Of a stretch of DNA of 64,000 nt, positions 4,905 to 60,519 are shown one piece after another; position 1 is the first letter of the stretch; the number at the start of each line of letters is the position of its first letter. Source of the DNA: Tricholoma matsutake (lineage: Eukaryota; Basidiomycota; Agaricomycetes; Agaricales; Tricholomataceae); assembly GCA_026075535.2 (NCBI GenBank), contig AP026541.1:1798001-1862000 (forward strand), given 5' to 3'. Under the pieces are notes generated by a model that saw only the letters and a program-made list of their open reading frames with translations, made no database searches and was not told the DNA's origin. The position numbers and the translations under genes were made by a program.

Positions 4905-5058
4905 CTCCTAAGGCCCGAAAATCGCAAACGCGCTGCCCAAGATAGGCAGGTACGGACTGGACGACGCTTCCCAAAGCTCCACAGAGTCCCTACACACTGT
5001 TCCAGATAATCTTGCCTTTATTACGCCACCATTTTCGCCAAACGCACTCCCTAGCGAC

Positions 5059-23905: not shown

Positions 23906-24046
23906 GCATCATTACAGGTAAGTAGTTATATCTCTCTATGTACTGCCCCAGCTGTGATGACAAATCAACACAGCCACATCATCAACAATGCTGGCAACGG
24001 TGCCGCCTCCTCCTTACCTCCTACCTCAATAACCAACAACGGGAAT

Positions 24047-24146
24047 GAGCCCAAACGATGGCATTGTCATTTGGGCTCACTTGTAAGTGCTTTTTTACAT
24101 GATTTTTGTTGTTTTGTTTAACTAACTGAAATTTCCTTAATGATAG
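24047..24146 (+). repeat. Hairpin-intron module
   Basis: Hairpin 24047-24078 (GAGCCCAAA...TTTGGGCTC), then GTAAGT at 24083, a T-rich run, AACTAACTGA, and acceptor GATAG ending 24146. The intron-like part is 64 bp. Confidence 0.6.
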
Positions 24147-24416
24147 GTTCTATCTATGTTATAATGATGCCACAGCCTCAAAACCATGACAATGACTGAC
24201 ACAGCCACCACCCTAGGACCCAGAACCACTGCTGCAAGCAACTGCTTGCGGGGTGGGAATGGGTACAACTGCAAAATGGCAAGACAATGGCGACGCCAAC
24301 TTGGCCAAACAGAATGACAATGCAACAAGGCGACTGGAGATGACTGGGACTGGGAGATGGAATGACAAGGGGACAAGCAGGAAACAATGAAAGGAAGGCA
24401 AAGCAAACAAAGAAAA

Positions 24417-24497
24417 GGCCCAAGAGACATCGTTTGATGTCTCTTGGGCCATTGGTAAGTTTTTTTTCTTGTTTTTGTTACTAACAAACTTTTTTAG
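24417..24497 (+). repeat. Hairpin-intron module
   Basis: Perfect 15-bp arms, GGCCCAAGAGACATC, with a 4-base loop (24417-24450), GTAAGT at 24455, CTAACAAAC and acceptor TTTTAG ending 24497. The intron-like part is 43 bp. Confidence 0.65.
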
Positions 24498-25049: not shown

Positions 25050-28000
25050 ATGTCTTCAACCCTTGAAAAACTTGTACAAACTTTCGATGGCTCAAATTAC
25101 ATTCAATAGGCTGACTCCATGAAGGCGTGGCTCAGGTCTCAGGGCCTCTGGCAGATAACTAGCGGGGCAGAAACCAAACCGCCTCTGGCACCTCCTTTGA
25201 TGGTGACAAATGCTACTCTTGTAGCAGATGCTATTGCCAAGCTCCAGACCTGGAGCAACAAAAATGACCAGGCTATTGGTAGCCTAGTGCTCCGCCTGGC
25301 CCCCTCAATTCAGCAGCATGCCAACACCAAGGACACTGCTGAGGTGGTGTGGGACCTCATTCGCACCGATTATGGTGTTGATGGCCCCTCCCAAGTCTTT
25401 GCAGACTTTAGGTCTGCAATAGCAATCAAAATTCTGGCTGCAAATCCCACGCCAGAGATTGCTAAAATGGCTGACAAGTTCGAGCGCCTCATGGCTGCCA
25501 ACATTGCCATCCCCAAACTAGTTCAGGTGATAATCCTACTTGCTGCAATGCCGCGCGAGTACAATTCTTTGTCCGCCACGGTCCTTAACACAACCGCTAC
25601 TAGTGCCTTGACATTTAAACATGTCAAGGACTCCATTGTCACTGAAGCCTCAAGGTGCACAGCAGTAGGAAAGCCCGCTGGCCAGCCTCAGGCCAACAAA
25701 CTTTCCACTGTCAAGTGCAAAGGGGGAAACCCCAAATGGCAGCCCAAAGAAGGGCAAAACAACAATGGAGATTCGTCCCGAAAACGTGGACGATGCAGGG
25801 ACAGAAAGACTAAGGAGGAAAAGCCTAAAGAGAAACATACCCACCTTGCCTCCAGTGCCTTTACCACCATAAATGGTAATGACACCATCATACTGCTGAT
25901 GCCGCTCATTCAGTGCATCGAAAAGCGCGAACACACTCCCACAAGGGATCCTCACCGCTGACTGCCTGCACAGGCATATTCGGGCACGGCCTCTACCTCT
26001 CATTTGGTTTATGCTGAATATCAGCAAGCTTGAGACACCCTTGAGCAAATGCAACTTCCGCGCACCATGAAAAATCTGCGACTGCTGGAAGAGCACCTAA
26101 CGGTACAAGAAGGTAAGAGGAGGAGGATCAAACCAGAACCGAGGATCGTAGAGGTAGAAGACGACACTGTCTCCCTTGGATTGGAACCTCCAGTTTCTGA
26201 TGAGGAAGTATGGAAAGCCGTCGACGAGATGCTCGTCGATGAACCCCTTGAAACAGGAGCGTATGATGATAGGTCAGTCCTTTTCCCTGCCACAAGCACA
26301 AAGATTAATATTCCTATGAAAACAGTGAACTTTTCATGTGAAATTTTACCGCTATTAAATGTATCATGGAATTATTTAGATCTTAATATATGTGTTATGT
26401 GTGCAAATGGAAATTGTAAGAAAGGTGCAGACTGGATCATGGATTCAGGCGCATCAAAACACTTCACTGGTGAAATGAAAGATTTCGCTTCCTACAAGCC
26501 TTTACCAAGAAAGGACTCTACCTTGGTCCAAACAGCCACAGGTACTACTCATATAGTAGGAAAAGGAGCAGTCTTCATTAAACATCAGGTAGTATGTCAC
26601 GGGAAGTCAGAGACGCATGAAATGCGATTATACCCCATCTACTACATACCTGACATTAATACTCAATTAATGTCAATGGGCGTCTTCTTACAAGACGGAA
26701 GTGATGTGCGTGGTTCCTCCGCACACATTTCATTCATTGAGAAAGGAAACCCAATTATGCATTGTGTCCCTCTTAGGAGAAGTGACACGATTTATTGGGC
26801 TCAGACTCATATAATGAGCACCAAAAAGGTCAATGTCGCGACCATTTATGTCGCTGACTACTTGACTTGGCATAGGTGACTTGGACACCCATCCAAAGAG
26901 GCACTAGGGAAAATGCCTAATAGCACCATCAAATTCCTGAGGAATTTAATTATTCCTAAAGACAAAATTATATGTCCAGGGTGTGCTGAAGGGAAAATGA
27001 CATCAAAATCTTTTCCTGAATCAAATTCATGTGCTGAGAAACCCTTTGAATTAATACATTCTGATCTAAAGGAACTCCCAGTACTATCGTACCACAAACA
27101 TAAATACTTTATTGTATTTCTGGATGACAAGACATCACATATCTGGGTCCAGTGCCTAAGAAAGAAGTCTGATGCTGCTGCAGCGATTAGACAATTTCAG
27201 GCAATGGCTTTGACCCATTATGGAAGCACTGGCATGTTGATCCAGGGGGGGAGTTCAAAGATCATGAGCTACAAAATACGCTCAAGGATTTCAGCATCAA
27301 AATAGAGATGTCTGCACCCCACATTCACGAACAGAATGGGAGCGCAGAGTGCACCATAAGGACAATAATGGAAAAGTCACAAACCCTGCGATTTACCACT
27401 TGTCTACCACAATCATGGTGAGAATTTTGCATTGAACATGCAACACACTTATACAACCGAACCCCAATAAGGCGCCTGAAATGGCTGACACCTTTTGAGG
27501 ACCTGACAAAGGTCCGCCCAGATCTAAACAATCTGAAGGTCTTCAGTTGTGGTGCTTACGTCTATCTACCCAAGGAAAAATGTCCAACCACATTATCTCC
27601 TCGATCGGAGTTAATGACATACCTTGGATTAGAAGATGGCATTAAAGCATACCGTTTCATGCGACTTAGTGGTGCAATATTCATTGGTGCTATGGCACTA
27701 TTTGATGAAATGATGTTCCCATGCTGTCCCAGAGCTAAAACTCCTGCCAAGACAGACCTTGGTGATTTTCCACCTCCAGAACCAGAAGATGATGACCACT
27801 CATCTGGAATGGATGGCGATGATTCTATACCACCACAAAATCCGCCCCTTCCTCCATCATCGGAAGATGATGATGATGATGTACCAAGTGAGCAAAAGGC
27901 ACATGATGATGCAACTGATGCTCCTCCTCCGCCGCCTCCAGTTACCACTGAGGATTTTCATCCAAGACGTGAAGATCAACAGGAATGGCAGCAATTGCCC

Positions 28001-29891
28001 CGTTGATCAGGCAGGCAGAGGAACATCCCAAACTGTCCCAGCAATATCTATGGAGAGAAGCAACTCCCCTCTGACATAGAGAGAGACATTGCGCATGATC
28101 GATATTGGAAGAGATCTGTGGGTCAAGATTTGGATCATAACCAAACATGACCACGACCTCAACAGCAAGAACTGGTTGCTGGACCGAGTTTGGCACCCCA
28201 CGAGAGTGTGCCTGATTCCAATAATCAAGAACATGATCACCCAATGGGGGAACCGGACAAAGCAGGTTATATTAAAAAGATAACCAAGGAAGGTGGAGAT
28301 AAGCTGATCCACTGGCTGTTGTCAAAAGCAGTCACACCATCAAGCAGAATAAGCCAAGTTCCAAACCAATTTCGTGATATTGCGCGCCTACCACGGCAGC
28401 AGCAACTTGAGTGGAAACAGGCTTGTCGTGAAGAATTAGAGGCTCTTTGCAAGCGACAAGTCTATGACATCGTCGATCTTCCACACGATTGAAAAACAAT
28501 CAAAAATAGATGGGTTTTCTCTGTGAAATTGGACGGAAGAAAATGAGCCAGACTCATGGCCAAAGGCTTTTCACAAGTCGAAGGCGTTGACTTTGATGAG
28601 ATTTTCTCACCAGTAGTCTGCTACAAGACCATACATCTCATGTTTGCACTTGCATCTCTAGAAGGCATGTATATGACCGGTCTAGATGTAAAAACCGCAT
28701 TTTTATATGGCAAACTAGAAGAGGAGATCTATATGGATCAACCCGAGGGTTTCAGACTCGAGGGAAAAGAGCGCAAAGTAATGCGCTTAGGCCGAGCATT
28801 GTATGGCCTTAAACAGGCCTCACTTGCATGGTGGAAAGAGCTAGAGGCATTTATGCGCACCATTGGGTTTGTGCGCGCCAGCTCCGATGCCAGCATCTTC
28901 ATACACAAGGATCCTAAGACAGGCAGCATTGTTATTGCACTAGTCTATGTTGATGATGGCTTGTTCATGGGGAAGAACAAGAAACTTGTGGATGAAAAGA
29001 AGAATGCTTGTTTGAAGCATTGGGAGTGCCATAGTACGGAAATTCTTGGGCATGCGTGTCACCCAGACTGCAAGCAAAGTCAAACTCGATCAAACTGAAT
29101 ATCTTGCCCAAGTGCTTGAGAGGTTCAAGATGACAAATGCCAAAGCTGCCCCCACTCCCCTCCTGACTGGTTACAAACCATCGGAAAACACAGTGATGCC
29201 AAACACGGTGCTTAGATCGAAATATCAGTCTGTGATTGGATCTTTATTGTATCTGATGCTTGGAACATGACCTGATATCGCTTACGCAGTAATCAAGATG
29301 TCGCAATTCTCGGCTAATCCTAGCCAAGAACATCTAGACAAAGCGATGTACATCATGTGCTATCTGGTGGGAACCCAGAAATATAATATAGTCTACGATG
29401 GAGAGAAATCCAAAGGGCTACAGGCCTTCACAGATTCTGATTGGGCAGCTGACACTGTCAAGCGCTGATCTACAACGGCTTACTTTGCTACTCTAGCGAG
29501 TGGCATTGTGTGCTGGCAGTCCCATTTACAAAAAACTGTAGCACTGTCATCCACAGAAGCCGAATATATGGCTCTCTCTGACACTTGTCGACACATAGTG
29601 TGGATAGAGTCCTTATTCCAGGAACTTGGATATATACTGAAGCGTGTACCAATCTGCGCTGATAATCAGGGATCCATCTTTATCAGATCAAATCCAGTTC
29701 AGGAAAGAAGGACCAAACATATAGACATTTGCTACCACTATACCCACAAATGCATAGAAAATGACAAAGTCACAGTCGTTTTCATTCCTGGAAGTGATAA
29801 TCCAGCTGACATGTTCACAAAGAACCTTGGCACCGTCCTATTCAGGAAATTTAGAGACTCTCTCAGAATTACTTTTGAGATTCAAACTTAG
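25050..29891 (+). pseudogene. Copia 2 Gag-Pol polyprotein, broken
   Basis: Starts at the ATG at 25050. The UBN2-like Gag runs to about 25850 (DLIRTDYGVDGPSQVFADF). The protease has MDSGASKHF at 26439-26465. GAG-pre-integrase is at about 26866, and the integrase core at about 27040-27500 has HSDLKELPV, IVFLDD and HEQNGSAE. A Pro/Asp-rich linker precedes RVT_2 (28480-29000, YVDD at 28945-28956) and RNase H (about 29400-29880; TDSDWAAD, LSSTEAEYMAL). Stops include TAG at 25107 (Trp expected) and TGA at 25959, 26031, 26877, 28004, 28490, 29268 and others where Arg CGA fits. Frameshifts lie near 27250 (G-run) and 29000. It is recent in LTR age but dead. Confidence 0.9.
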
Positions 29892-30214: not shown

Positions 30215-30620
30215 AGAACCACTGCTGTGAGCAGCTGCTCACGGGGTGGGAATGGGTGCAACTTCAAAATGACAAGAACAGCTACTCACGCCCACCATGC
30301 AGGACACACCACCTGCCTCCAGCCTCACGAGCAACTGCTTGTGGGGTGGATGGTGGGTGGAATGACAACAATAGCAGGGAACGATGACAGCACCTGCTCC
30401 AGCCCTACGAGCCACTGCTCGTAGGGTGGACAATGGGTGGAACAACAATGATTAGGGTCCTAGGTAAACACCCACAATGACACCCACCCCACGCCTATGA
30501 GCATCTGCTCGTGGGGTGGTTCAGGGGGGAGAAGAATAGGGACAGGAGAGCAAGACAGCCAGGGGATGACCTGGGGAGAGATGAACGCCGCCATGAGCAA
30601 CTGCTCATGGTGGGTGTTTT
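30215..30620. repeat. Cluster of GAGCA..TGCTC palindromes
   Basis: At least five short hairpins occur (near 30227, 30326, 30396, 30500 and 30593), each of the type CACGAGCAACTGCTCGTG with variants, usually followed by GGGGTGG. Arms differ in parallel between copies. A 19-base G run follows at about 30672-30690. Confidence 0.6.
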
Positions 30621-32051: not shown

Positions 32052-33252
32052 CTTCCCCTCAAGCTGGTAAAAGTCCAAGCTCAGATGTGAAGTGCTTGAC
32101 TTTTGCAGAAGGGAGGGCCTTAGTGAGGGTATCCACAATCATGTTGTCTGTGGGACAGTAGATGAGATGAAGGGAACCTTGTTCAATGATCCAGTGAGTA
32201 AAGCAGAAACAAATGTTGATGTGCTTGGTGCAAGCATGGTATTGGTGATCCTGAGTGAGCGTGACTGCAGATTGATTGCCCAAAAAGAGTGTTGTAGGGT
32301 CTAGGTTCAGTGAGAACAATTGTGTGATGAGGGAGCACAGCCACAAGGCTTCCTTGGCAGCATGGGTAATGGCAACATACTCGCTCCAGTGGTAGAGAGG
32401 GAAACAATTTCTTGACGTTTAGCACTCCATGAAATGGTGCTGTCATGAAGGAGGAACACATACCCAGAAATGGTGTGACGATCTTCAGCCATGTTTCCAT
32501 CAGCATCAGCAAACCCCATTAACTCATTGTGAGTTCCTCCAAATGACAACCACAGCTCATTTGTACCCTTCAAGTACCAAAAAATGTGCTTGATGTAGTG
32601 TTTAAGGGTCCGGTTCAGTCCAGTTTTTTGACCCCCAAGGGGGTCAACCAGAGACCGAAACCGGTCCAAATTGATGCCCAGATTAGATGGACCGCAACTG
32701 AACCAAATAGGACTGGTCCTATTTGTTTCAGTTGATTCCAAAAGACTGGTTTTAACTGGTCTTCATGCTGTTTTTACAAGTCTAACTAAATTATAATATA
32801 TCATAGATAAAATTAATTATATTTACACCCTGCGAGCAGTTGCTAAAAGACAGAAAGAAAATGAAGAAGAACAAGATAATAATAAAATAGCCCCACTGTC
32901 TCACATTTGTAGCAAGGGTGGGGGGTCGAGAGTGGTTGTCATTTGTTGTCTCCTCCCTGTCATGTGTTGCCACCTCCCCTATTCTCGTTGTTGTCCATTT
33001 TCCACTCCCTGTTGTTTGTCTGCCCCTGTGTGCATTGTTGTTTGTCATTGGCACCTCCATCCCCCCCTACGAGCAGTGGCTCATAAGCAGGTTGGTGGTG
33101 CTGTGACATGGTGTCGGCCGTCATCCCTGGCTGCTGTTGCTGTTGCTGTCTGGAAGTGGTGGTACCCATTGCCACCCTGCGAGCAGAGGCTCGCAGCAGT
33201 GATGTAGGGCATGGGTGGGGTACATCGAGGGCCCAGGTGCATTGCGTGGTGG

Positions 33253-33331
33253 CTAGGTGATGTTGTTAGTAAAAGTAATAAGATTAAAACATACCCAACA
33301 GCCCAAACAACGATAGTCATTGTTTGGGCTG
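33253..33331 (-). repeat. Hairpin-intron module
   Basis: On the minus strand: hairpin CAGCCCAAACAATG...TTGTTTGGGCTG (33331-33299), GTATGT from 33294, TTTACTAAC, and acceptor ACCTAG ending 33253. The intron-like part is 42 bp. Confidence 0.6.
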
Positions 33332-33429
33332 TCTGGATGTGGTGGTACCCATTGCAACACTGTGAGCAGAGGCTCACAGTGGTAATGTAGGGCATGGGTG
33401 GGGTACAGCGAGGGCCCAGGTGCGTTGCA

Positions 33430-33530
33430 TGGTGGCAAGGCGACGTTGTTAGTAAAAGTAATAAGATTAAACAAAAACAAAACATACCTGATGGCCCAAA
33501 CGATGCTAGTCGTTGTTTGGGTGGTCTGGA
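33430..33530 (-). repeat. Hairpin-intron module, acceptor lost
   Basis: The minus strand shows the CCCAAAC...GTTTGGGC hairpin, GTATGT and TTTACTAAC, but no AG at the expected place. Confidence 0.45.
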
Positions 33531-33639
33531 TGTGGCGGTACCCATTGCCACCCATGGTGATGTAGGGCATGGGTGGGGTATGATGGTGCGGGTCCAGGTG
33601 CATTGTATTGTGGCTAGGCGACATTGTTAGCAAAATATA

Positions 33640-33735
33640 AGAAACTAAGAAAAGAATTGTTAGTAAAAGAAATAAGACTAAACAAAAAAAAACATACTTG
33701 ACAGCCCAAACAATGACTAGTGTTGGTTGGGGTGT
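33640..33735 (-). repeat. Hairpin-intron module, decayed
   Basis: The minus strand shows a partly mismatched hairpin (ATTGTTTGGGC intact), GTATGT and TTTACTAAC. The acceptor is uncertain. Confidence 0.4.
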
Positions 33736-33884
33736 CTGCTTTGCATTTGTTCTGAATTGTTCATTGGCGGTGCTTTTGGGGCAGGCAGTGTGCATGTGTT
33801 TATGGTGGACATGGGACTGGATTCGTGGGAGTCATTTGTCATTGTGGGAGTCATCTGGCAATGGTGCCACTTTTCTTTTTTTTC

Positions 33885-33935
33885 AGGAGCACATGACCAC
33901 ATGGTCCATGCATGGCCACAGGGTATATAAGTACC
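33885..33935. promoter_or_regulatory. TATA-containing segment shared with 43255-43312
   Basis: ATGACCACATGGTCCATGC followed by GGGTATATAAG. A similar order (GACCAAATGGTC, then GGTATATAA) occurs at 43269-43306, each time about 150-200 bp from a hairpin-intron module that reads away on the minus strand. It could be a Pol II promoter; TATATA reads both ways, so direction is open. Confidence 0.35.
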
Positions 33936-34693
33936 TGCCAAACGACTCCTTTTCCCCTGGGCTTGTCCCACTTCATGTAAGTATAGTATAAATAGTAATA
34001 GTAGTATTTATATTTTGTTCTTTTATATACTTTTATATACTTATTTCTGTATTTTGTACTTGAATAATACTATATATCTAGCAGTATAAACATGTGTGAA
34101 AGACCAGTTAAGACCGGTTTTGTGATTTTTTTCAAAACTGATCAACTGACAACCGAACCGACTCCCATATGGGGTCAACCACAACCGACGGTTCAGTCTC
34201 TTGCGGTTAAGTTCGGTTAAGGGTCCGGTCTTTTTCTGGTCTTATGGACTGGACCCTTGAACACTAGCTTGATGGCATCCCAATGAGCCATGCCAGGCTT
34301 TGTCAAAAAACATGAGACAGTTTGGACTGCAAAGGAAATGTCCACGCAGGTGCTGAGTGAGGCATACATGAGTGGGCCCATAGCTTTGTTGTATGGAACA
34401 TGACACATCTGGGTGAATTCAGCAGTGGTCGAGGGGGATTGGGATGAGGAAAGACAAAGGTTGGTTTCCATGGGGGTAGAAACAGGCTTGAGATCTTGGA
34501 GGTTGTAATGATGGATGATAGAGTCGATATAGGAACATTGGGAGAGGTGTTCACAGTCACAACAAATCTCGATGCCAAGAAGCCAATGGAGCTCACCAAG
34601 GTCCGTGATTTCAATGTGTTTGGAAATTTTCTTTTTGTTAACGTTGATAGGACCACCTTGTCTTTCAAGCTCAGAAAACACATCTACAATTGT

Positions 34694-43097: not shown

Positions 43098-43130
43098 GGC
43101 CCAAATGATGCAACATGCGTCATTTGGGCC
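43098..43130 (-). repeat. Hairpin of the hairpin-intron family, intron lost
   Basis: GGCCCAAATGATG / CGTCATTTGGGCC arms. By the flanking sequence it is a minus-oriented module whose intron side abuts the gypsy leader at 43096. Confidence 0.5.
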
Positions 43131-45146: not shown

Positions 45147-48100
45147 CCACTTTGAAGTTTTGTCAGTTGAATTCCCAGAGGATGAATCTAATTCCATGAC
45201 TGTTCCCCTCTCTGACCCTTCAAAGTTGGCTGAAGACGTACCTGCTCTTCCTATATCTCCCTCTACCCCACACCCAGAATTAAATCATGGGAGTGCAAAC
45301 TACCACACAAATATATTGTTGCATCCACTCCTTCTACACATTCCTTGAATCTAGCAATCAAACTACAGACTACCAACACTGGACAGATACTCAGTGTCTC
45401 TGCACTCCTGGACTCTGGTGCGACTGGTCTCTTCATTGATGCCCATCTCACACAACATCGCCTGAATACTCACTCACTCTTGTGTCCAATACCTGTTTAT
45501 AATGTGGATGGGTCCCCAAATGAAGCTGGTGTCATCTGAGAGGTTGTAGACCTGGTCCTCCATTACAAAGATCATAGTGAGCATGCCCTTTTTGCTGTCA
45601 CTTAGTTAGGAAGGCAGAAGGTGATCTTGGGCTATCCATGCTTTGAGACCATAACCCAGAGGTCAACTGGTGTACCAGGGAGGTTACAATGAGCCAGTGT
45701 CCATCCCACTGTCACACTTGTTTCATGGAAGCCAGACAAGAACACTGTGGACAAAAGGCCTCAGTACAATGCACTCGGAAGTGTCATGCCGGACCCCTGC
45801 CTATGCCTGAGGGGGAGTTAGAGGGGGTTCCTGATCTGATGCCAGACTCAGATGATGATAATGAGGAGCCAGAGTAAGTGGAGGAAGGTGATCAGATCTT
45901 CTACACTGTGATTCATCCATTGCATGAGGTGTGTGCTACATCAAACATATCCCAACACCTCGCTGAGGCCTTCCACAAAAACAATTAGTGTTCAAAAGTC
46001 AGGTCCAGTCTAGTTTTTTTGCCAAATTGGGACAAACCACAACCGCAACCGGTTGCCTAATGAGGCAGGACCCTGAAAAACTGGACTGAACTGCAAAAAA
46101 CTGGTCCAAAACAGTTCAAACTAGTTCAAACTGCAGTTCAGTCATAACCCTGTTCAAACTGGTTTGAACTGACTAAAACTGATCTTTTTGGTCATGAGAC
46201 CAGTTGTAAACCATAATAGAGAGTGTATATTAGTCAAATGTAAAGGTCTCATCATGATAACAATGCTCTACATGTCAAAAAACACAACTGTGAGATGTTG
46301 TATAAGTTAGGTTTGGCATTAGGATATTGTTTTGGCCATAGCACATGCAATTCTGGACCGTTTCTCCTAAAATTTTGATCAGAAGATGCATATTTATGTG
46401 GTGCATTCTGTGGCGGTTGAACCGGTTAGAACCGGTTTTTACTGGTCTGGTTCAGTGCGGTTTTTTTATCCAGAGATAAATGAACTGCAACTGAAGGTCC
46501 AGTCTTTTTTGGTTTAGTCTGGTTCAGTTTCTGGTCTTTTTGCAGTTCAATGAACTGGACTTGCAAACACTAAAAACAATGCCACCAAATCCTCTACTGA
46601 TTCCTTGCTTCCTCATCTCTATGAGTTCGGGGATGTGTTCTCCAAGGAATCATTCAACTCTCTCCCCATCGGATCACGTGATCAAACTCACTCCCGGTGC
46701 AACTCCTCATCCTGCAAGGTCTATCCTCTCTCTCCTGAAGAACAGTGACAGCTTGACCAGTTCATTGATGAGCACCTGGCCTCTAAACGTATTTGACCAT
46801 TGAAGTCACCCATGGCCTCTCCCTTTTTCTTTGTCAAGAAGAAGGATGGCTCACTTTGACTGGTTCAAAACTACAAAAGGCTCAATGACATCACAGTCAA
46901 AAATCGCTACCCATTGCCTCTTATCTCCAAACTTGTGAACCAACTCCATGGAGCCCAATACTTTACCAAGCTCAACGTCCATTGGGATTGCAATAAAGTG
47001 AGGATAAAGGAGGGAGATGAGTCTTTCATACCAACCATGGTCTTTTTGAACTGCTCGTCATGTTCTTTGGCCTTACTAATAGTCCTGCCACCTTTCAGAC
47101 CATGATGAACAACATCTTTTACAACCTCATCCTCAAAGGTTTGTATCTATCTTGATGACATCCTCATCTTCCCTCACATGGTTGAAGAACACCATCACAT
47201 CACATGCCTTGTCCTGGAACAACTTCGACAGTACAAACTCTACCTTTGTCAGGACAAGTGCAAGTTTGAGAAGACCAAGATTGAGTACCTCAGCCTGATT
47301 ATCTCAGAGGGTCAGATGGAGATGGGTCCTATCAAGCTGAATGGGGTCATGGCTTGGCCAATGCCCACAAACAAGAAAGAGGTGCAGTCTTTCCTGGGCT
47401 TTATCAATTTATATCGGTGTTTTATCAAGGACTTCTCACATCATGCACAGCCACTGTTCAACTTGACAGGAAAGGAGGTATGGAGGTGGGATAATGCACA
47501 ACAGGAGGCATTTGAAAAGCTTAAGGAGATGGTCACTTCTGCTCCTATTCTTACCTTTGTTGATGATTTGCAGCCTTTTTGTGTAGAAGCCAATGGTTCT
47601 GACTTTGTGACAGGCACTGTGTTGTCTCAGCAGTCTCCAGAGGACCAGAAGTGGCATCCTGTTGTGTTCTACTCCAAAAGCCTTAGTGCTGTAGAGCGAA
47701 ACTATGAGATCCATGACAAGGAGATGTTGGCAATAATGCACGCTCCAGGAATGGTGACACTTCCTTGAGGGTGCCCAACACAAGGTGGAAATTTGGACGG
47801 ATCACAAGAATCTCAAGTACTTTATGACAGCCAAGAAATTGAATTGTCATCAAGCTCATTGGTCCCTGTATCTATCCAGATTTGATTTCTCCTTGCACCA
47901 CCATCTGGGTCACAGAGTGGGGAAGACCAATACCCTCTCCCAATGTGCAGACCATGGGGATGGCAGCAATGACAATCAAAACATTGCATTGTTGCAGCCA
48001 GACCTGTTCACCATTCAGGCACTGGAAGGCATTGCACCCCAGGGCAAGGAGTAGGACATCCTATGCACCATTCATTGTGCAAACTGTAGTGGTTTACACA

Positions 48101-48646
48101 AGGATGTTGTCACCCGAGCTGTTAAAGAACTGCGGAAGGGATCCACTGTTTCCTTGTGTGCAGCAGAGTGGGCTGAAAAGGAGGACTTGTTGTATTTCAG
48201 GGATTGCATCTATGTCCCCAACGACCCAGACCTTTGCTGGCGCATCATATCCCAACACCATGACTCACAGATTGCTGGTCATCCTGGACACTGGAAGACC
48301 TTGGAGCTCACCTCATGGAATTATTGGTGGCCACAAATGTCATGGCTCATTGGTCAGTATTGTCATACTTGTGACCTTTGCTTATGCACCAAGATTCCTC
48401 GTTGCAAACCCATTGGTGAGCTACACCCTCTTCCTGTTCCAGAGAGTCATCGGGATGTTGTCAGTGTTGACTTTGTGGTGGAGTTGCCAGAGTTGAATAG
48501 GTTTGATGCAGTGATGTGCACAGTTGATTCAGTGGGGAAATGCACTCACTTTATTCCCACTCACACCACTGTCAGTGCCCTGTGTGCTGCCCAACTCTAT
48601 CTCCACCATGTGTGGAAATTACATGAACTTCCTGGCACCTTCCTTG
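45115..48646 (+). pseudogene. Chromovirus copy 2 Pol, first part
   Basis: Protease (LDSGATGLFID near 45411), RT (IYLDDILIF, partly deleted near 47140-47170), RNase H (TDHKNLKYF near 47798) and integrase up to LHELPGTFL at 48646. There it is cut by TIR element B. An hAT-like MITE sits between the protease and the RT. TGA or TAG replaces CGA, TGG or CGG at several sites that are open in copy 1 (for example near 46747, 46795, 46857 and 48052). Confidence 0.85.
45986..46572. mobile_element. hAT-like MITE, 587 bp
   Basis: Ends TAGTGTTCAAAAG and CTTGCAAACACTA, with a perfect 8-bp duplication AAAACAAT (45978-45985, 46573-46580). It splits the chromovirus pol at FHKNNA. The interior is non-coding and made of AACCGGTT/AACTGGT-like phrases. 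It is the same end family as 32596-34266, without hairpin-intron modules. Confidence 0.9.
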
Positions 48647-48889
48647 AGTACTTTACACTCCCCCACCTATTCCGGTTGGATTCCAGTTCATCCAGCTGGA
48701 ATTTCTGGAATTTCTGGAATCTGGTGGAAATTTTTTTGTATGTAGTTTTCCCTATGCAGCATAATTCTGGTCGGAATAAGGATCCAATTTACAGCCGGAA
48801 TCCCCGGAATCTGACCAGACTCATCACAACCAGAATAACAGGAATAACCGGAATGCACGTGCTTTCCCAAATAAAAGTTTGACACACAT

Positions 48890-48955
48890 CAATAATCAAA
48901 CTCTCGACCTTGGGTCTGCATACATAACAGCATGCTTAACCACTGAGCTACCAAG
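48890..48955 (-). other. tRNA-like segment at left of element B
   Basis: The minus strand has TAGCTCAGTGG (perfect A box) then TTAAGCATG...; the B box is decayed (GAGTTTGATTA). It points outward to the left end. Confidence 0.5.
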
Positions 48956-49229
48956 GAATTATTCTTTGGTATACATTTAATACTTTTATTACCCAACCAA
49001 GGTACATAGTTAATCACAGTCATTAACAGAATAATTGATAAGTATGCATATGCATGACACATGAGACGTGACTGCCAGCTCACAACCACTACCACCACTG
49101 TCGCCAACGCCGCCTCCTCCTCCTCCTCTCCACTCTACCACCACCACTGCATGCGCACCCACCACCACCATTCCCACACCCAATGCCACCATCACCACCA
49201 CCTTCAAACGAGCCAACTGGATGGAACGC

Positions 49230-49330
49230 GGGCCCAAATGACGCAGATTGCGTCATTTGGGCCCTATGTAAGTTTTTTTCATTTGGTTTTTGTTTTAATA
49301 AACTAACTAACTCATTTTTTTAGTTTCTAG
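49230..49330 (+). repeat. Hairpin-intron module, array unit 1
   Basis: Perfect 16-bp arms GGGCCCAAATGACGCA (49230-49245 / 49249-49264). GTAAGT at 49268, ACTAACTAACT, acceptor TTTCTAG ending 49330. Confidence 0.75.
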
Positions 49331-49387
49331 GTTATAATCTACTAGTAACGAAGCCACCACCTGCAAATGAGCCAACACAGGCCCAAA

Positions 49388-49479
49388 CAACGCAGATCGC
49401 ATCATTTGGGCCCTATGTGAGTTTTTTTGTTTGGTTTTTGTTTTAATAAACTAACTAACTCATTTTTTTAGTTTTCTAG
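49388..49479 (+). repeat. Hairpin-intron module, array unit 2
   Basis: Arms GGCCCAAACAACGC / GCATCATTTGGGCC mismatch only at former CpG positions. GTGAGT at 49425, ACTAACTAACT, acceptor TTCTAG ending 49479. Confidence 0.7.
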
Positions 49480-49527
49480 GTTATAATCTACTAGTAACAA
49501 CGCCACCACCCGCAAACGAGCCAACAC

Positions 49528-49628
49528 GGGCCCAAACAATGCAGATTGCATTGTTTGGGCCCTATGTGAGTTTTTTTATTTGCTTTTTGTTTTTATAAAC
49601 TAACTAATTGTAATTTATTGCTTTTTAG
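49528..49628 (+). repeat. Hairpin-intron module, array unit 3
   Basis: Perfect 16-bp arms GGGCCCAAACAATGCA with loop GAT (49528-49562). GTGAGT at 49566, AACTAACTAATTG, acceptor TTTTTAG ending 49628. Confidence 0.75.
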
Positions 49629-49689
49629 GTTGTATACTACTGGGGATGACCTGCCATGACGAAAAACGCGAGCCGACTGGACGGAATGC

Positions 49690-49790
49690 GGGCCCAAATG
49701 ACGGCAACATCGTTTGGGCCATAGATAAGTTTTTTTCTTTTTTCTTTTTGTTTTTATCAATCAACTAATTGTAATTCATTGCTTTTTAGG
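49690..49790 (+). repeat. Hairpin-intron module, array unit 4, donor altered
   Basis: GGCCCAAATGACG / CATCGTTTGGGCC, each arm keeping a different CpG. The donor reads GATAAGT instead of GTAAGT. AACTAATTG and TTTTTAG follow. Confidence 0.6.
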
Positions 49791-50004
49791 CTCTATACTA
49801 CTGGGGATGACCTGCCACAATGAAAAACGCACAACTCACACCCACACCCACCCGATCCCCTCCTCCCCATTCAAATGGGATGTGAGGCTGTTGACATAGG
49901 CTAGGAGGGTGCAGAGGGATGCCAGGAGACCCCAGAAGGGGGGTACCTGCCTAGTAAGCACCCACCCACCTCTGCACTCACGCCACATTGCGCTGACGCG
50001 CCCA

Positions 50005-50035
<31 letters not shown>

Positions 50036-50102
50036 GAAAAAAACAGAAATCCAAACAGGGGATGACAGCGACAAACGACGACAAGCCACCCACCCCCAGC
50101 CT

Positions 50103-50213
50103 CACGAGCAACTGCTCGTGGGGTGGATCATGGGTGGAATGATGCCCAGGTGCAGGGACAGGAGATGACAATGACACACCACCCACCCCCAGCCTCATGA
50201 GCAACTGCTCGTG
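50103..50213. repeat. Two GAGCA..TGCTC palindromes
   Basis: CACGAGCAACTGCTCGTG (50103-50120) and CATGAGCAACTGCTCGTG (50196-50213), both followed by GGGGTGGA. The same elements are in copy C near 59592 and 59684. Confidence 0.7.
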
Positions 50214-50254
50214 GGGTGGAACGTGGGTGGAATGACAGACAACAGCGGGGTCAC

Positions 50255-50528
50255 ATCCCCTCCCCCTCCCCCGCACTTCGTGTGGGGAGGGATTTTTTTT
50301 GTATTTTTAATTATTTATTAGTATTGTGCCCCCCCTCCCCCATTTTGTGTGGGGGAGGGATTTTTTTCTTCATGTTTTTACCTCCCCCCTCGTGTTCGGC
50401 GTGAGGGGTTAGCTTTTTATGTATATAAATAAAACTCCCTCTCACAAGATGTGAGAGGGAGGATTTTTTGTGTATGTATATAATTACAATTATCCCCACT
50501 CCCTCGCATTCAATGTGAGGGATGTGGT
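50255..50528 (+). repeat. Row of five hairpins, four with T runs
   Basis: Successive GC-rich hairpins each followed by a T run: CCCTCCCC..GGGGAGGG + T8 (to 50300), CCCTCCCCC..GGGGGAGGG + T7 (to 50368), CCCCTC..GAGGGG with T5 (to 50418), CTCCCTCTCAC..GTGAGAGGGAG + T6 (to 50468). A fifth, CCCTCGCATT..AATGTGAGGG, has no T run. Copy C repeats the row at 59740-60005. They resemble terminator hairpins, but their role in a fungal nucleus is unknown. Confidence 0.7.
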
Positions 50529-50608
50529 TAATTAAAAAAATTTGATCTTAACTACTTCGAAAAAAATTAGAGTGTCATGAATAAACATTATATTACTATC
50601 TAATAATT

Positions 50609-50700
50609 CTCCTGTGGCTCAACTGGTTAAGCACACATGTTTGGTTTGTCATGTGATCACTCTAATCAAGATGTCTTGAGTTCAATCCTTACTCTGCACA
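50609..50700 (+). other. tRNA-like segment at right of element B
   Basis: TGGCTCAACTGG (perfect A box), an anticodon-arm-like CACATG..CATGTG hairpin and GAGTTCAATCC (good B box) are spaced as in a Leu/Ser-type tRNA. The acceptor arm does not pair well. It points outward to the right end. Confidence 0.55.
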
Positions 50701-50784
50701 AATATATTTTGTAGGCACTTTGACAACTTAAGACTTGAAATTTGACTATCCATTAGGGTATATACTCTAAGTTGAGGCTCTGGA

Positions 50785-50985
50785 GTAACCAGAATCTGGT
50801 CAGAATAACCGGAATAACTGGACTCCGACCGGAATAACTGGACTCCAATCGGAATAACTGGACTCTGACCGGAATAACTGGACTCTAACCGGAATAATTG
50901 GACTCCAACCGGAATAACTGGACTCCAACTGGAATAACTGGAATCCAACTGGAATAACTGGACTCTGACCAGAATAGGTGGGGGA
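50785..50985. repeat. ~20-bp subterminal tandem array
   Basis: About ten units of GGAATAACTGGACTCCAACC with small changes, running into the right TIR. Confidence 0.85.
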
Positions 50986-50998
50986 GGGTAAATTACTG

Positions 50999-51890
50999 CC
51001 TTCCTTTCTGACGGTGGCCCTCAGTTTGTGGCAGAGTTCACTTGTGAGCTGTACCAACTTCTGGGGATCAAACTCCTTGCTTTGACTGCCTATCACCCAC
51101 AAACTGACAGCCAGACTGAGCAAGTCAACCAGGAACTGGAGCAGTACATCTGCATCTTCATCAATGAGCACCAGGACAATTGGGACAATCTTCTCCCCTT
51201 GGCCAAGTTTGGGTACAACAACCATGTCCATGGTTCCACTCAACAAACCCCTTTCTTCTTAGACACTGGATGGCATCCACACATGGGATTCGAACCTCAC
51301 CAAACTCCCTCACACATTGAGATGGTGAATGAGTTCACAGAACACACGAGGGATAGCTTGGAGGAGGCAAAGGCAGCCTTAGTGAAAGTGAAGGATGACA
51401 TGGCACACTTTTACAATCAACGCAATTCTCTGGCCCCTCAGTACAAGGTTGGTGATCAAGTTTATCTTGACTCCAGTGACATCTCCACCACATGTCCATC
51501 CAAGAAACTCACCCATTGCTTCCTGGGACCTTTCCCCATTGTCAAGTATGTTGGAATACATGCCTATCATCTGCACCTCCCAGCCTCCATGTCCAGACTC
51601 CACCCAGTCTTCCATGTCATCAAACTCCTTCCAGCTCCCCCAGGTCTATTCCCAGGATGCCATTCATGTCCACCACCACTGCCTACAGTGATCGAGGGAG
51701 AACCCCAGTACAAAGTTGAGTCAATCTTGGACAGCCAGTTGTGTTGAGGAAAACTCCAGTATTTGGTGCACTGGAAGTGTTATGGGTATGAGGAGAACTC
51801 ATGGGTTGAGGAGTCCGATGTGAATGCCCCTCGGTTAGTCAAGGAATTCCACTGATGGCACACTGCTGCACTGCATCACATTCAAGTCAC
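50999..51890 (+). pseudogene. Chromovirus copy 2 Pol, integrase end and chromodomain
   Basis: Resumes at the target duplication with SDGGPQFVAEFTCELYQLLGIK. It goes through TEQVNQELEQY, PQYKVGDQVYL and a chromodomain (QYKVESILD...[20 protein letters not shown]). TGA codons in the chromodomain region (about 51746 and 51854) replace CGA of copy 1. Confidence 0.85.
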
Positions 51891-51912
51891 TGACTTTGGT
51901 TGTATGCAACTT

Positions 51913-52125
51913 AGTAAGGGGACTAGGGGGTGCCCCATGTGTTTTTTTTTTTTCTCCTATTTTTTATGGTTGTCCTATATTTTTCCTCACTTCATTTCCT
52001 TCTAGTTTTCATTTTCTATGATTTTTCCTCATTTTATTACTAATTTTCCTTTCTATCACATTTGTGCATGTTGACAGTTTTATATTTAGAGGTGGAGTAC
52101 CCTTTCCGACATCTACTGCTTGGTA
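51913..52125 (+). repeat. 3' LTR of chromovirus copy 2, truncated
   Basis: Matches the LTR from (TG)TAAGGGGACTAGG to CTTGGTA, then stops. The first base is altered. The missing rest abuts TAGGTCCTAC at 52126. Confidence 0.8.
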
Positions 52126-52369: not shown

Positions 52370-52457
52370 GCCCAAGAAACGTCGACCACATTTCTTGGGC
52401 CATATGTAAGTTTCATTTCATTTCATTTTATTGTTACTAACTAATCACTAGCTCTAG
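52370..52457 (+). repeat. Hairpin-intron module
   Basis: GCCCAAGAAACG..ATTTCTTGGGC, GTAAGT at 52406, TACTAACTAATC, acceptor CACTAG or CTCTAG. A TATTTATAAAC box lies about 40 bp upstream. Confidence 0.6.
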
Positions 52458-52875
52458 CTGTTGCCAACGATGGCAACAAACCCCACCCTGACACAATGAC
52501 AATGACAACTGGGACCAGGAATGACTGAACGTCAATGAGGACCAGACCAGGGAAACAAGGACCAGGACCAGGACCACCTGAGGTCCATGACAACAGGGGG
52601 AGGATGGTGATGGCAGGATGATGATGGCAGCAATGATGATGACAGGGTGAGGACGATGCACAAGGGATGAGGACATCATTGACATCTCTTGGGCTCCAGG
52701 TAAATTTCTTTTTGCTTTTCTCGTGTCATTTTTTCATCATTAACAATTTTTTATAGATACTAACTACTATTGACAACAATGACTGGCCCACCTCTCATGC
52801 TACAACAGGCCCACGATGACACTGCAATGATGACAGGGGACACCACCACCACCACCACCACCACAGTGCAAAGCT

Positions 52876-52963
52876 GGCCCAAATGACAAACAATGTCATT
52901 TGGGCCATAGCGTATGTTTCTTTTATTTATTTTCTTTTCTTTTACTAACTCTTTCTTCTCTAG
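52876..52963 (+). repeat. Hairpin-intron module
   Basis: Perfect 13-bp arms GGCCCAAATGACA (52876-52906), GTATGT at 52912, TTTACTAACTC, acceptor TTCTCTAG ending 52963. Confidence 0.7.
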
Positions 52964-53118
52964 TTTCTTTTTGTTTGCCTATGACATCTCCCACATGACA
53001 GTCATCACACCCATGCCCTCTTTGTGCCCTATGCTCTACGCTGCTGCTGCAAGCCTCTGCTTGCAGGGTGGCAATGGGTTCCATTCCTAAACAGCAACAT
53101 CAACACCACACCACAGCC

Positions 53119-53230
53119 AATGAATGAATGCCAATGAATGAATGCCAATGAATGAATGCCAATGAATGAATGCCAATGAATGAATGCCAATGAATGAATG
53201 CCAATGAATGAATGCCAATGAATGAATGCC
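53119..53230. repeat. 14-bp minisatellite
   Basis: Eight tandem units of AATGAATGAATGCC. Confidence 0.9.
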
Positions 53231-53574
53231 CACAAACAAACACCAATGAACAAACACCAAACAGCAGGGCAACAAACATGGGGGATAATGAAGAGTGGGG
53301 AAGATGAACAAACAGGGGAGGCGACAAATGAACAGTGGGGACAACGAACAACAACACAGCAACAATGAGCGAGGCACATTCGGCACCAACAAACACAACG
53401 GCAGGTGGCACCACTGAGAGCCCCTGCTCACAGGGTCAAGAGATGGGGGGAAGAGAGATGAAGGGAGAGGGAGACGATGATGGGAGGGGGGCATGCAAGC
53501 AGCAAGGTACCGATGATGGGAGGGGGCACAACTATGGCTGATGACAATGATGAAAGGAGGTGTGCACAAATAGG

Positions 53575-53657
53575 GCCCAAGAGACGTTGACGTCTCTTGG
53601 GCTGTAAGTTTATTTTTTTATTGTCTTTTCTTTTTCTTTGCTACCCTACGAGTCTAG
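53575..53657 (+). repeat. Hairpin-intron module
   Basis: Perfect 12-bp arms GCCCAAGAGACG with loop TTGA, GTAAGT at 53604, acceptor GTCTAG ending about 53657. A branch motif is unclear. Confidence 0.6.
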
Positions 53658-54859
53658 TAGTACGAGATGACACCCACGCCCATGAGCAACTGCTTGTGGG
53701 GTGGATCCTCTTCTGTGCTACCCAGCCCTGATGATGACAACATGGTGTCATCATCATTATCAGCTCCTGTATTCAAAGGAGCCCACAATTGCGGGTCTTC
53801 TCAGGTGCAGGAGCTGTTGGTGGATGAATTGATGGGAGATAGTAAGTCTACCCATAGGACCAGTGTAGTAAGGCATGCCATAGACTCATGACCACCACCT
53901 CGTGGGGATGAGAGTGTCAATCCCAATTGACACTTGCTCTTCTCACATGAGGGATGGTCACTGGGCTGGGTGTGTCAGTAACAGGACCAGTCCATATTGG
54001 TTACATATCAGTTCAAAAACCAGTCAAGACCAGTTTTTCGACTGGACCAGGGGTCCAACCAACATTGCCCTTAGACTAATTTATAGTATGATAAAAACAT
54101 TAAGAATAATAAAAAACGAGACAAAAAAATGAGAACAAGTCCACCCCATGAGCAGTGGCTTGCGAGGCTGGCCATAGGCATCATAAGTAGTACAAAATAG
54201 GTCCCCTCCATCTCGCATCTTGCATTTCGAGCAAGGGAGGGGGCAGGGTGGTGTGATGGGGTGTTGGTAAAACTTATTCATTGGTGTCATCGTCCCCATT
54301 CATTGTTGGTAGCTAGCACCCATGATCCATTCCACAAGCAGTGGCTCGTGAGGCTGGGAGTAGGTGCTGTGTTGGTCCTACCCCCTCTCCATCAAAGGAA
54401 GCCCCTGCTGCATAGCAGCAAGCAATGGCTTGCTGTCTAGCTCACAGGGGCTGCAGATGGAGGCAGAGGCAAGGGTATGCCAGTTGAAGAATGATCAGGG
54501 GCACTCAAGAAAAAGAAATGGCCCCCTCCCCCCTGCATAGAGGGCAAAAGGTGAGGGGTGGCCGCTCATCCTCATTGTGGTCCTGTCATGTTAGTTATTA
54601 TTCTCCCATGGTCATACTGCCATCCCCGTTGCTCCCTGTTCCATCCTGTGAGCAGTTGCCCACAGCGATGGTTGGGGGTGCTGCTGCCATGATGATCCCA
54701 CCATTGTCCTTGCCATCCTTGCCTATTCCTGGCCCTGTTCTCTTTGCCCTGGTGGTTGTCCTCATCATCGGTGCTCTCCCTGTCATCCCCATTGCCAGTA
54801 GTTCAATTTAGTTAACAATTTAGTTAGTAAAAATGAAAATGAACAATGAAAGAAAAGAA

Positions 54860-54905
54860 AAAACTTACCTATGGCCCAAAAGATGTCATTGACGTCTCCT
54901 GGGCC
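54860..54905 (-). repeat. Hairpin-intron module, minus strand
   Basis: The minus strand has hairpin GGCCCAGGAGACGTC / GACATCTTTTGGGCC, then GGTAAGTTTTTTC. The intron runs left with TTACTAAC; the acceptor was not found. Confidence 0.5.
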
Positions 54906-55107: not shown

Positions 55108-55201
55108 CTTGAAATACAATAGATTAGTAAAAAGAAATGCAAAGAAATGACAATAAAACAACTCACCCAGGGCCCAAATGATGATAGACATCATTTGGGC
55201 C
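55108..55201 (-). repeat. Hairpin-intron module, minus strand
   Basis: The minus strand has perfect 13-bp arms GGCCCAAATGATG (55171-55201), GTGAGT from 55166, TTTACTAATC and acceptor TTTCAAG ending 55108. Confidence 0.65.
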
Positions 55202-55439
55202 TGTCTGCATAGGTTCCTGGCATTTGCCTACCCTGTCATTGCCATCTTCGTTGGGTGTCATTTGTCATCTTGTTGTTCCCCGTTGTTTGCTCATTCCCAT
55301 GGTCATACAAACCCTGTGAGCAGGGGCCCACAGCAGTGGTGTGACATCAGGTGCAGGGTTTGTGCATGGGGTGTCTCGGGTTAGATACTATTATTATAAG
55401 TTAAAACACTTAAAATAGAGTTTGATCAGTAAAAAGAAA

Positions 55440-55502
55440 CACAAAGAAATAAGAAAGAAACTTATCTGGGGCCCAAACAATGTTCAACCATTGTTTGGAC
55501 CC
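55440..55502 (-). repeat. Hairpin-intron module, minus strand, donor altered
   Basis: Arms GGGCCCAAACAATG / CATTGTTTGGACCC with one mismatch. The donor reads GATAAGT, like 49723. TTTACTGATC follows. Confidence 0.5.
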
Positions 55503-58803: not shown

Positions 58804-59064
58804 CATTCAATGAGTACTTTACACTCCCCCACCTATTCCGGTTGGATTCCAGTTCGTCCGGCTGGAATTTCCGGAATTTCTGGAATCCAGTGGAATTTTT
58901 TTTGTATGTAGTTTTCCCTATGCAGCACAATTCCGGTCAGAATAAAGATCCAATTTACAGCCAGAATCCCCGGAATCTGACCAGACTCATCACAACTGGA
59001 ATAACAGGAATAACTGGACTAACCGGAATAACTGGAATGCATGTGCTTTCCCAAATAAAAGTTC

Positions 59065-59140
59065 AACACACATCAAGAATTGAACACAGGACCTTGGGTC
59101 TGCATACATAACAGCACACTTAACCACTGAGCTACCAAGT
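59065..59140 (-). other. tRNA-like segment at left of element C
   Basis: The minus strand has TAGCTCAGTGG (perfect A box, 59134-59124) and GTGTTCAATTC (B-box-like, about 59087-59077). Points outward. Confidence 0.5.
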
Positions 59141-59411
59141 AATTATTCATCTACATACATCTAACACTTTTATTACCCAACCAAGGTGCATAGTTACAGC
59201 CATTAATGGAATAAATAATAAGTACACATACATGCATGACACATGACACATGACTGCCAGCTCACAACCACCACCACCACCATTGTTGCCAACGCCGCCT
59301 CCTCCTCCTCTCCACTCTACCACCACCACTGCATGCGCACCCACCACCACCATTCCCACGCCCATTGCCACCATTACCACCACCTTCAAATGAGCCGACT
59401 GGACAGAACGC

Positions 59412-59516
59412 GGGCCCAAACAACGCAGATTGCATCATTTGGGGCCTAAGTATGTTTTTTTTTTCATTTGTTTCTTGTTTTTTCATACTAACTAACTTGT
59501 TTCATTTGTCTTATAG
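59412..59516 (+). repeat. Hairpin-intron module
   Basis: GGGCCCAAACAACGCA..TGCATCATTTGGGGCC with CpG-type mismatches, GTATGT at 59450, ACTAACTAACT, acceptor CTTATAG ending 59516 (67-bp intron-like part). Decayed hairpin arms follow at 59545 and 59576. Confidence 0.65.
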
Positions 59517-59739
59517 GTTCTACTCAACTGCCAGACACAACATGGGCCCAAACAACGTGATTGGACAGAACACAGGCCCAAACGATGCAGACATGAGCAA
59601 CTGCTCATGGGGTGGATCGTGGGTGGAATGATGCCCAGGCACAGGGACAGGAGACGACAATGACACACCACCCACCCCCAGCCTCATGAGCAACTGCTCG
59701 TGGGGTGGATTGTGGGTGGAAGGACAGACAACAGCAGGG

Positions 59740-60005
59740 TCGCGTCCCCTCCCCCTCCCCCACACTTTGTGTGGGGAGGGATTTTTTTTGTACTTTTAAT
59801 TATTTATTAGTATTGTGCCCCCCCTCCCCCATTTTGCGTGGGGGAGGGATTTTTTTCTTCATGTTTTTACCTCCCCCCTCACGTTCGGCATGAGGGGTTA
59901 GCTTTTTATGTATATAAATAAAACTCCCTCTTGCATCTTGTGAGATTTTTTGTTTATCTATGTAATCACAATCATCCCCACTCCCTCGCATTCAATGTGA
60001 GGGAT
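59740..60005 (+). repeat. Hairpin-plus-T row, copy C
   Basis: Same series as 50255-50528. The fourth hairpin is largely lost, while the first three and the last are kept. Confidence 0.65.
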
Positions 60006-60089
60006 GTGGTTAATCAAAAAAATTTGATCTTTCACTACTTCGAAAAAAATTAGAGTGTCATGAATAAACATTATATTACTATCTAATAA

Positions 60090-60182
60090 TTCTCCTGTGG
60101 CTCAACTGGTTAAGCACACATGTTTGGTTTGTCATGTGATCACTCTAATCAAGATGTCTTGAGTTCAATCCTTACTCTGCAC
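60090..60182 (+). other. tRNA-like segment at right of element C
   Basis: TGGCTCAACTGG at 60098-60109 and GAGTTCAATCC at 60161-60171. Near-identical to 50609-50700. Points outward. Confidence 0.55.
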
Positions 60183-60269
60183 AAATATATTTTGTAGGCA
60201 CTTTGACAACTTAAGACTTGAAATTTGACTATCCATTAGGGTATATACTCTAAGTTGAGCATCTGGAGT

Positions 60270-60420
60270 AACCAGAATCTGGTCGGAATAACTGGAATAA
60301 CTGGACTCCAACCAGAATAACTGGACTCCAATCGGAATAACTGGACTCTGACCAGATTAACTGGACTCCAACCGGAATAATTGGACTCCAACCGGAATAA
60401 CTGGACTCCAACCAGAATAG
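60270..60420. repeat. ~20-bp subterminal tandem array, element C
   Basis: Units of GGAATAACTGGACTCCAACC, about six or seven, up to the right TIR. Confidence 0.85.
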
Positions 60421-60519
60421 GTGGGGGAGGGTAAATTACAGCATTCAATGGATCACCCGGCTGACACACAGGTTCAGGTAAGTAACAAGTTAAACCTATC
60501 AACACCTCTTTCAACCCAT

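Follow-up and report, generated by a model that had tools for sequence, protein, structure and literature searches.

A tandem array of hairpins and intron-like stretches at 49230-49789 of the window (the whole 64,000-nucleotide stretch of Tricholoma matsutake DNA analysed here) is the cargo of a non-autonomous hAT-like DNA transposon, and its module, a hairpin set directly before a splice donor, recurs in many diverged families of elements across the genome. We read the array as U2-type introns of a multi-exon non-coding transcript whose exons end in hairpins, and give this reading a probability of roughly 0.5, just on the favourable side of even. From the sequence we infer that the plus strand is transcribed and spliced into a chain of short hairpin-ended exons and, with less assurance, that each hairpin does its work as RNA where the exon stops.

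Anatomy of the array

The four units follow each other at start-to-start distances of 149, 149 and ~159-161 bp (Table 1), and their positions are as the initial annotation had given them (49230-49790). Arms of up to 16 perfect base pairs had been described, and units 1 and 3 have them. In units 1-3 the donor GT stands three bases past the hairpin, as GTAAGT at 49268 and as GTGAGT at 49417 and 49566; three donors in four units is what had been claimed, with the second placed at 49425, 8 bases off. Unit 4 has GATAAGT at this point. The branch-like motif reads ACTAACTAACT in units 1 and 2, ACTAACTAATT in unit 3 and ATCAACTAATT in unit 4, and the acceptors end at 49330, 49479, 49628 and 49789. The build as first described (hairpin directly before a donor, then a T-rich stretch, a branch motif and an acceptor) was right, and it recurs across diverged families.

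Table 1. Features of the window discussed in the text
Feature	Position	Strand	Remarks
Two modules of other families	24046..24497	+	Hairpins 24049-24076 and 24418-24449
Second transposon family	32596..34266	-	1,671 bp; ends TAGTGTTTAAGGGT/TAGTGTTCAAGGGT; 8-bp duplication GCTTGATG
Target-site duplication, left	48638..48645	.	8 bp, CCTTCCTT
Array-carrying non-autonomous hAT-like DNA transposon	48646..50998	+	2,353 bp; inverted ends and 8-bp duplication
Unit 1 hairpin	49230-49264	+	16-bp perfect arms, 3-nt loop; z -7.3 vs shuffles
Predicted intron 1	49268..49330	+	GTAAGT ... ACTAACTAACT ... CTAG, 63 nt
Predicted exon, unit 2 hairpin at its end	49331..49416	+	86 nt
Unit 2 hairpin	49380-49413	+	Interior mismatches; z -3.6 vs shuffles
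Predicted intron 2	49417..49479	+	GTGAGT ... CTAG, 63 nt
Predicted exon, unit 3 hairpin at its end	49480..49565	+	86 nt
Unit 3 hairpin	49528-49562	+	16-bp perfect arms, 3-nt loop; z -6.2 vs shuffles
Predicted intron 3	49566..49628	+	GTGAGT ... TTTTTAG, 63 nt
Unit 4	49691..49789	+	Hairpin; GATAAGT, no GT donor; branch-like and acceptor-like motifs kept
Unit 4 hairpin	49691-49720	+	z -3.3; 2/200 shuffles fold equally well
Two copies, 93 bp apart, of second hairpin type	50087..50229	+	GAGCAACTGCTC core, outer CCACCC/GGGTGG
Target-site duplication, right	50999..51006	.	8 bp, CCTTCCTT
Three hairpins with donors	52370..53602	+	52370, 52877, 53575; first two with full intron-like stretch
Hairpin with GTGAGT donor	55172..55200	-	
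Second window copy of the array's transposon family	58812..60441	+	1,630 bp; duplication CATTCAAT

The GATAAGT terminal unit is a type found in seven copies, those of the window array and of L022, L026, L028, L031, L033 and L034 among the fetched arrays. All seven are without GT, and branch and acceptor motifs are kept in six, the L022 copy being incomplete. Two further arrays (L023 and L024) each have a unit that has lost its hairpin; a single GGGCCC precedes the donor there, as though everything between the two ends of the palindrome had dropped out.

The predicted exon is 86 nt long in 51 of 55 cases and one of its frames is open in 54/55 exons, which would suit protein-coding repeat exons. 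Since 86 cannot be divided by 3, however, the next exon is read in a frame that holds a stop in 53/55, and the reading frame is lost after one unit; to a coding role we attach next to no credence. Searches for a known RNA gave no Rfam match above the gathering score over the whole window and below-threshold matches only in two closer scans, and the plasmid and viral collections gave no match. Recursive splicing, with exons beginning in GT, was set aside, as exons of several modules start otherwise.

The array is cargo of a hAT-like transposon

The initial annotation had suspected a link to a transposon, and the array does lie inside one. The 2,353-bp element begins with GAGTACTTTACACTCCCCCACCTATTC and ends, read inward, with CAGTAATTTACCCTCCCCCACCTATTC (the ends of the family can also be given as GAGTACTTTACACTCCCC); its terminal inverted repeats have 54-nt arms that are 83% complementary. 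It interrupts a Ty3/gypsy pol reading frame, with reverse transcriptase, RNase H and integrase zinc-binding domains to the left of the insertion and a Tf2-1-like SH3 domain to the right. Retroelement open frames, Ty3/gypsy-like and Ty1/copia-like by eye, occupy 4912-10076, 25110-29098 and 47109-51747 of the window, the last of these being the retroelement copy split by the array's transposon, with its domains confirmed.

Searches of the genome (13 contigs, 161.0 Mb) showed how common the family is. The left end of the element has 1,170 genomic copies at no more than one mismatch, against 0 for the control, and a search for the array family gave at least 129 matches, grouped into ~40 places. 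All 20 further copies that were fetched hold the array, with 3-8 units each by fuzzy search. Including both in the window, 22 copies were examined for the target duplication, and in 17 of the 19 with both ends measurable 7-8 of the 8 bases match (8/8 in 11 of them), compared to 0/114 for a shifted control. The second window copy, 58812..60441, has by eye one hairpin-intron unit.

The hAT label rests on the ends and on the length of the duplication, because the family could be tied to no transposase gene bearing such ends. The genome holds 151 matches to the hAT dimerisation domain (150 of 449 candidates scored), and a comparison by eye with the end sequences, taking the first 100 in the list, placed none of them between such ends. 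Two of the domain matches, C10:9455222 and C4:6850946, lie ~4 kb from array copies (C10:9459211 and C4:6847193); they could be remnants of a related transposase, or there by chance.

Introner-like elements, in which hairpin and intron together are the mobile unit that makes new introns, had been among the first proposals, and the units are indeed intron-sized and present in thousands of copies in one genome. In the array family, however, it is the 2.4-kb element as a whole that has the mobility, the ends and the target duplications, with the units in its interior; the other modules viewed in context sit, by eye, in non-coding hairpin-rich stretches, and no frame of the predicted exon can be read through the tandem copies without a stop. 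We regard this origin as very unlikely. Another early suggestion, that the arrangement lets a transposon be spliced out of host transcripts, is a possibility.

The hairpin-donor module recurs in unlike transposon families

The annotation had proposed searching the genome for the hairpin-donor pattern. Hairpins of the form GCCCAA...TTGGGC have 6,294 matches genome-wide (15 for the reversed-pattern control), and those with GTAWGT within 10 nt have 3,180 (control 0), a count that can include a few nested doubles. Once the donor letters were permuted to TGAWTG, 8 matches were left. A different pattern, TTGGGCCAT followed within 6 nt by GTAWGTTT, gave 544 matches (control 0), and TTTGGGCCCTATGTRAGTTTTT, with up to 2 mismatches, gave 2,076 matches against 0 for its reversed control. 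Modules with hairpin, donor, branch and acceptor number 74 in 262 kb, against 4 in the reversed sequence. Since 20 of the 21 source sequences were picked with a query from this array (L021-L040), this count and that of the 97 hairpins below are weighted to one family.

Within the window, hairpins with a GCCCAA/TTGGGC base and a one-sided donor are found at 24049, 24418, 33301, 52370, 52877, 53575 and 55172. Outside the array these are 7 of the 8 hairpins of this kind, and 5 have a full intron-like stretch; the hairpin at 43099 is without a donor. The modules in 24046..24497 have donors at 24083 and 24455 and predicted introns of 64 and 43 nt. Element 32596-34266 holds minus-strand modules, with donors at 33697 and 33294, between ends (TAGTGTT...) unlike those of the array carrier; units of this build are thus present in two or more transposon families that differ in their ends. 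Modules within one cluster of the window all share the same orientation. Partly decayed modules can be seen by eye near 54840-54905 and 55380-55500, beside hairpin 55172..55200.

On C1 the same trio of hairpins is found three times, ~91-97 kb apart (860924/957473/1052066, 878302/974901/1066126 and 900910/997467/1090298), which suggests a tandem triplication on that chromosome.

Intron-like motifs persist across diverged modules

We looked at the flanks of hairpins chosen with no regard to the donor. In the window and 20 fetched copies together, 97 hairpins were found; a donor flanks 76 of them on exactly one side and none on both sides, and 71 have a full intron-like stretch. Hairpins resembling the array's own family make up 76 of the 97. 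A choice-free sample was taken from the genome-wide list of GCCCAA...TTGGGC hairpins, consisting of 20 of the first 22 (one nested double and one tandem neighbour were omitted). In this sample the donor is on exactly one side in 16 and on both in 0, and the full set of donor, branch and acceptor is present in 14; the 4 hairpins outside the 16 have GATAAGT (2), GTAAGC (1) or no intron at all (1). Blind and window hairpins together (33) were then reduced to 26 whose similarity to one another in the 70 nt that follow the hairpin is below 80%. Those with more than 4 mismatches, or lying too close to the end of a stretch, had been excluded beforehand. Among these 26 diverged hairpins the donor is found on one side in 22 and on the other in 0, the branch motif in 20 (7.6 expected from shuffled sequence), and all three U2-type consensus motifs, at fungal distances, in 17. 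In the blind and diverged samples the donor side is by definition downstream, and the fair figure is that for one side versus both or the other; as the hairpin is near-palindromic, its opposite side is a fair control.

Measured up to the first acceptor-like YAG, the predicted introns of the diverged modules are 42-67 nt long, a size comparable to the host mean of 77 nt (PMC6980582). Spacing is tight, with a gap of 5 nt between TTGGGC and GT in 65 of 92 cases and the loop centre 20.5 ± 1.6 nt ahead of the donor in 22 modules. The T-rich interiors vary across diverged modules while donor, branch and acceptor persist, which is the best evidence here for taking the units to be introns. That diverged families of elements share this build favours the option, already listed in the initial annotation, of a structured non-coding transcript with real introns.

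The hairpins are also palindromic in DNA, and an array of palindromes might act at that level, through cruciforms, replication slippage or transposase binding, with the splice-like motifs as a by-product. Variation in unit number, from 3-8 in fetched copies to 1 in the second window copy, and the hairpins missing between GGGCCC ends in L023 and L024 would agree with this. A symmetric DNA device, though, needs no one-sided donor, branch and acceptor, and the one-sidedness of the donor (76/97 against 0 with both, 22/26 against 0 on the other side) counts against such a device, as does the fall from 3,180 matches to 8 when the donor is permuted; we hold it to be improbable.

A stronger competitor comes from the array family itself. 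Over its 77 units conservation is 0.935 in the hairpin, 0.927 in the intron and 0.932 downstream, with variation greatest at CpG sites, and at 73 donor sites the donor G is replaced by A in 8 and GT by GC in 1. Within the family, donor, branch and acceptor motifs are no more conserved than their flanks, so this part of the check proposed at the outset speaks against the initial interpretation; across families the motifs stay and the rest of the intron differs, which speaks for it. Equal conservation of motifs and flanks, together with the donor losses and a symmetrical decay of both arms (73 G-U vs 64 A-C, with no RNA-type bias seen in arm decay), is what one would expect of a passenger relic, that is, a gene for a structured RNA with introns that several DNA transposons acquired in the distant past and amplified, and that is now functionless and decaying. 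The families share the GCCCAA...TTGGGC ends that were used to seek them and look related beyond those ends, which again fits a relic. On the other side, donor, branch and acceptor survive in modules less than 80% alike after the hairpin, the distance from hairpin to donor is tight, and hairpin interiors differ and yet still pair: in 91 distinct hairpins arm pairing is above that of all 2,000 arm reassignments, an excess partly due to two hairpin classes, AAACGAC and AAGAGAC. A functionless relic is an explanation that we take seriously but doubt.

Folding and a possible role for the hairpin

In 22 modules the mean unpaired probability is 0.21 from -36 to -5 and 0.66 from -24 to -20, where the loop lies. 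That the hairpin exposes the donor was considered and rejected: the donor has a mean unpaired probability of 0.50, about that of the intron (0.51), and in the best fold of units 2 and 3 it is partly paired, donor GUG with a CAC ahead of the hairpin.

On the reading of the units as introns of a non-coding transcript, each would comprise an exon ending in a stable hairpin and, three nucleotides on, a U2-type intron of ~63 nt, and splicing of the transcript would yield a chain of short exons, each with a hairpin at its end. Additional tandem units would arise by ordinary unequal recombination. No precisely spliced genomic copy of a unit was found in the genome search (0), which says little because this is expected when the carrier is a DNA transposon.

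As to what the hairpin might do, a 2008 study by Mishler et al., going by its title, is said to report that substrate RNA structure alters the exon junction complex site. This complex loads ~20-24 nt upstream of junctions (PMC6224609). The hairpin would fold ~5-36 nt before the junction and leave at the loading site only its small loop (-24 to -20), and from this coincidence we propose that it would hamper loading; spliced transcripts would thus bear less of the marking on which surveillance of spliced RNA relies. Hindered loading is the most likely role of the hairpin in this model, and we put it forward with low confidence. Since the loading site falls in the loop and not in the duplex, masking needs a loop too small to load, and position is the one point in favour of the idea; the loop may instead display the loading site, with the opposite effect.

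In Cryptococcus, poorly spliced transposon transcripts are silenced by RNAi. Silencing of this kind would favour transposons with good introns. One could imagine a selfish RNA device that, by confining the loading site to a loop of a few nucleotides, would gain splicing without surveillance and spread across unlike transposons, an extension of the model that we think unlikely.

Relation to known elements

MITEs are as a rule short and without introns. The array carrier resembles non-autonomous hAT transposons and MITEs in its inverted ends, 8-bp duplication, repeats near the ends, lack of a transposase and high copy number, and differs from hAT MITEs in holding directional hairpin and intron units and further hairpins. 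In maize Ds and dSpm, splicing uses a few sites near the element ends. A different case is soybean TgmR*, which sits in an intron and is removed with the host intron (PMC4219821). Transposons with splice sites are already known, and in all three transposon sequence goes through the spliceosome, as proposed for the array; unlike them, the array repeats what is predicted to be a complete intron module.

Introners are intron-sized repeats, present in some fungi, and many of their families bear signs of DNA transposition; they make gene introns by their own insertion, for which the target duplication may supply the splice sites (Gozashti et al. 2022, PMC9860276). Array units share the intron size and the repetition, whereas the predicted introns of the array travel inside a larger element and its hairpins would belong to the exons. 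In oskar, the SOLE is an RNA fold at the exon junction of a spliced transcript (PMC4509934); it is built from both exons and belongs to one gene, while the hairpin of the array would be confined to the upstream exon and has thousands of copies. Closer to the host, megB1 of Tricholoma is a non-coding dimeric Alu-like element, of which this section of the genus has a copy that lies outside the rRNA gene (PMC10627285). Both it and the array are non-coding repeats of the same genus, and megB1 is set apart by its description.

A description of the module was not found in the open literature on introns in transposons, introners, hAT MITEs and hairpins at donors, nor do the available parts of the T. 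matsutake genome papers (PMC10211490, PMC6980582) describe a hairpin-donor-intron module. The vehicle is of a known kind; the repeated hairpin-donor-intron cargo, common to unlike transposon families, is undescribed as far as we searched. Thousands of recurrences in unlike elements suggest a working part. If spliced, the modules would offer thousands of natural variants of RNA structure at the exon end against donor use, which would also inform on junction-complex loading and on the silencing of transposon RNA. The telomere-to-telomere assembly of T. matsutake (13 contigs, 161.0 Mb) is given as having 25.4% unclassified repeats (PMC10211490), and the modules may, as a guess, account for part of these.

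Further features of the carrier

A second hairpin type with a GAGCAACTGCTC core is common near modules, with 25 core matches in the window (one palindrome being counted on both strands) compared to 1.75 in model sequence. Hairpins of this family are found at 24237, 30230-30596, 33081-33374, 50107, 50200, 53052, 53685, 59596 and 59689.

Near the ends of the 2,353-bp element, two stretches look tRNA-like by eye, with a box A/box B appearance (48890-48960 on the minus strand and 50614-50700 on the plus strand); both read outward, and a similar stretch is seen near 23800 (minus strand). An ARAGORN scan of 48000-52000 found no tRNA. Between 50264 and 50520 several C/G-rich hairpins stand in a row with T-runs after them, terminator-like in aspect (CCCTCCCC...GGGGAGGG ATTTTTT), an arrangement repeated in the second window copy at ~59740-60000.
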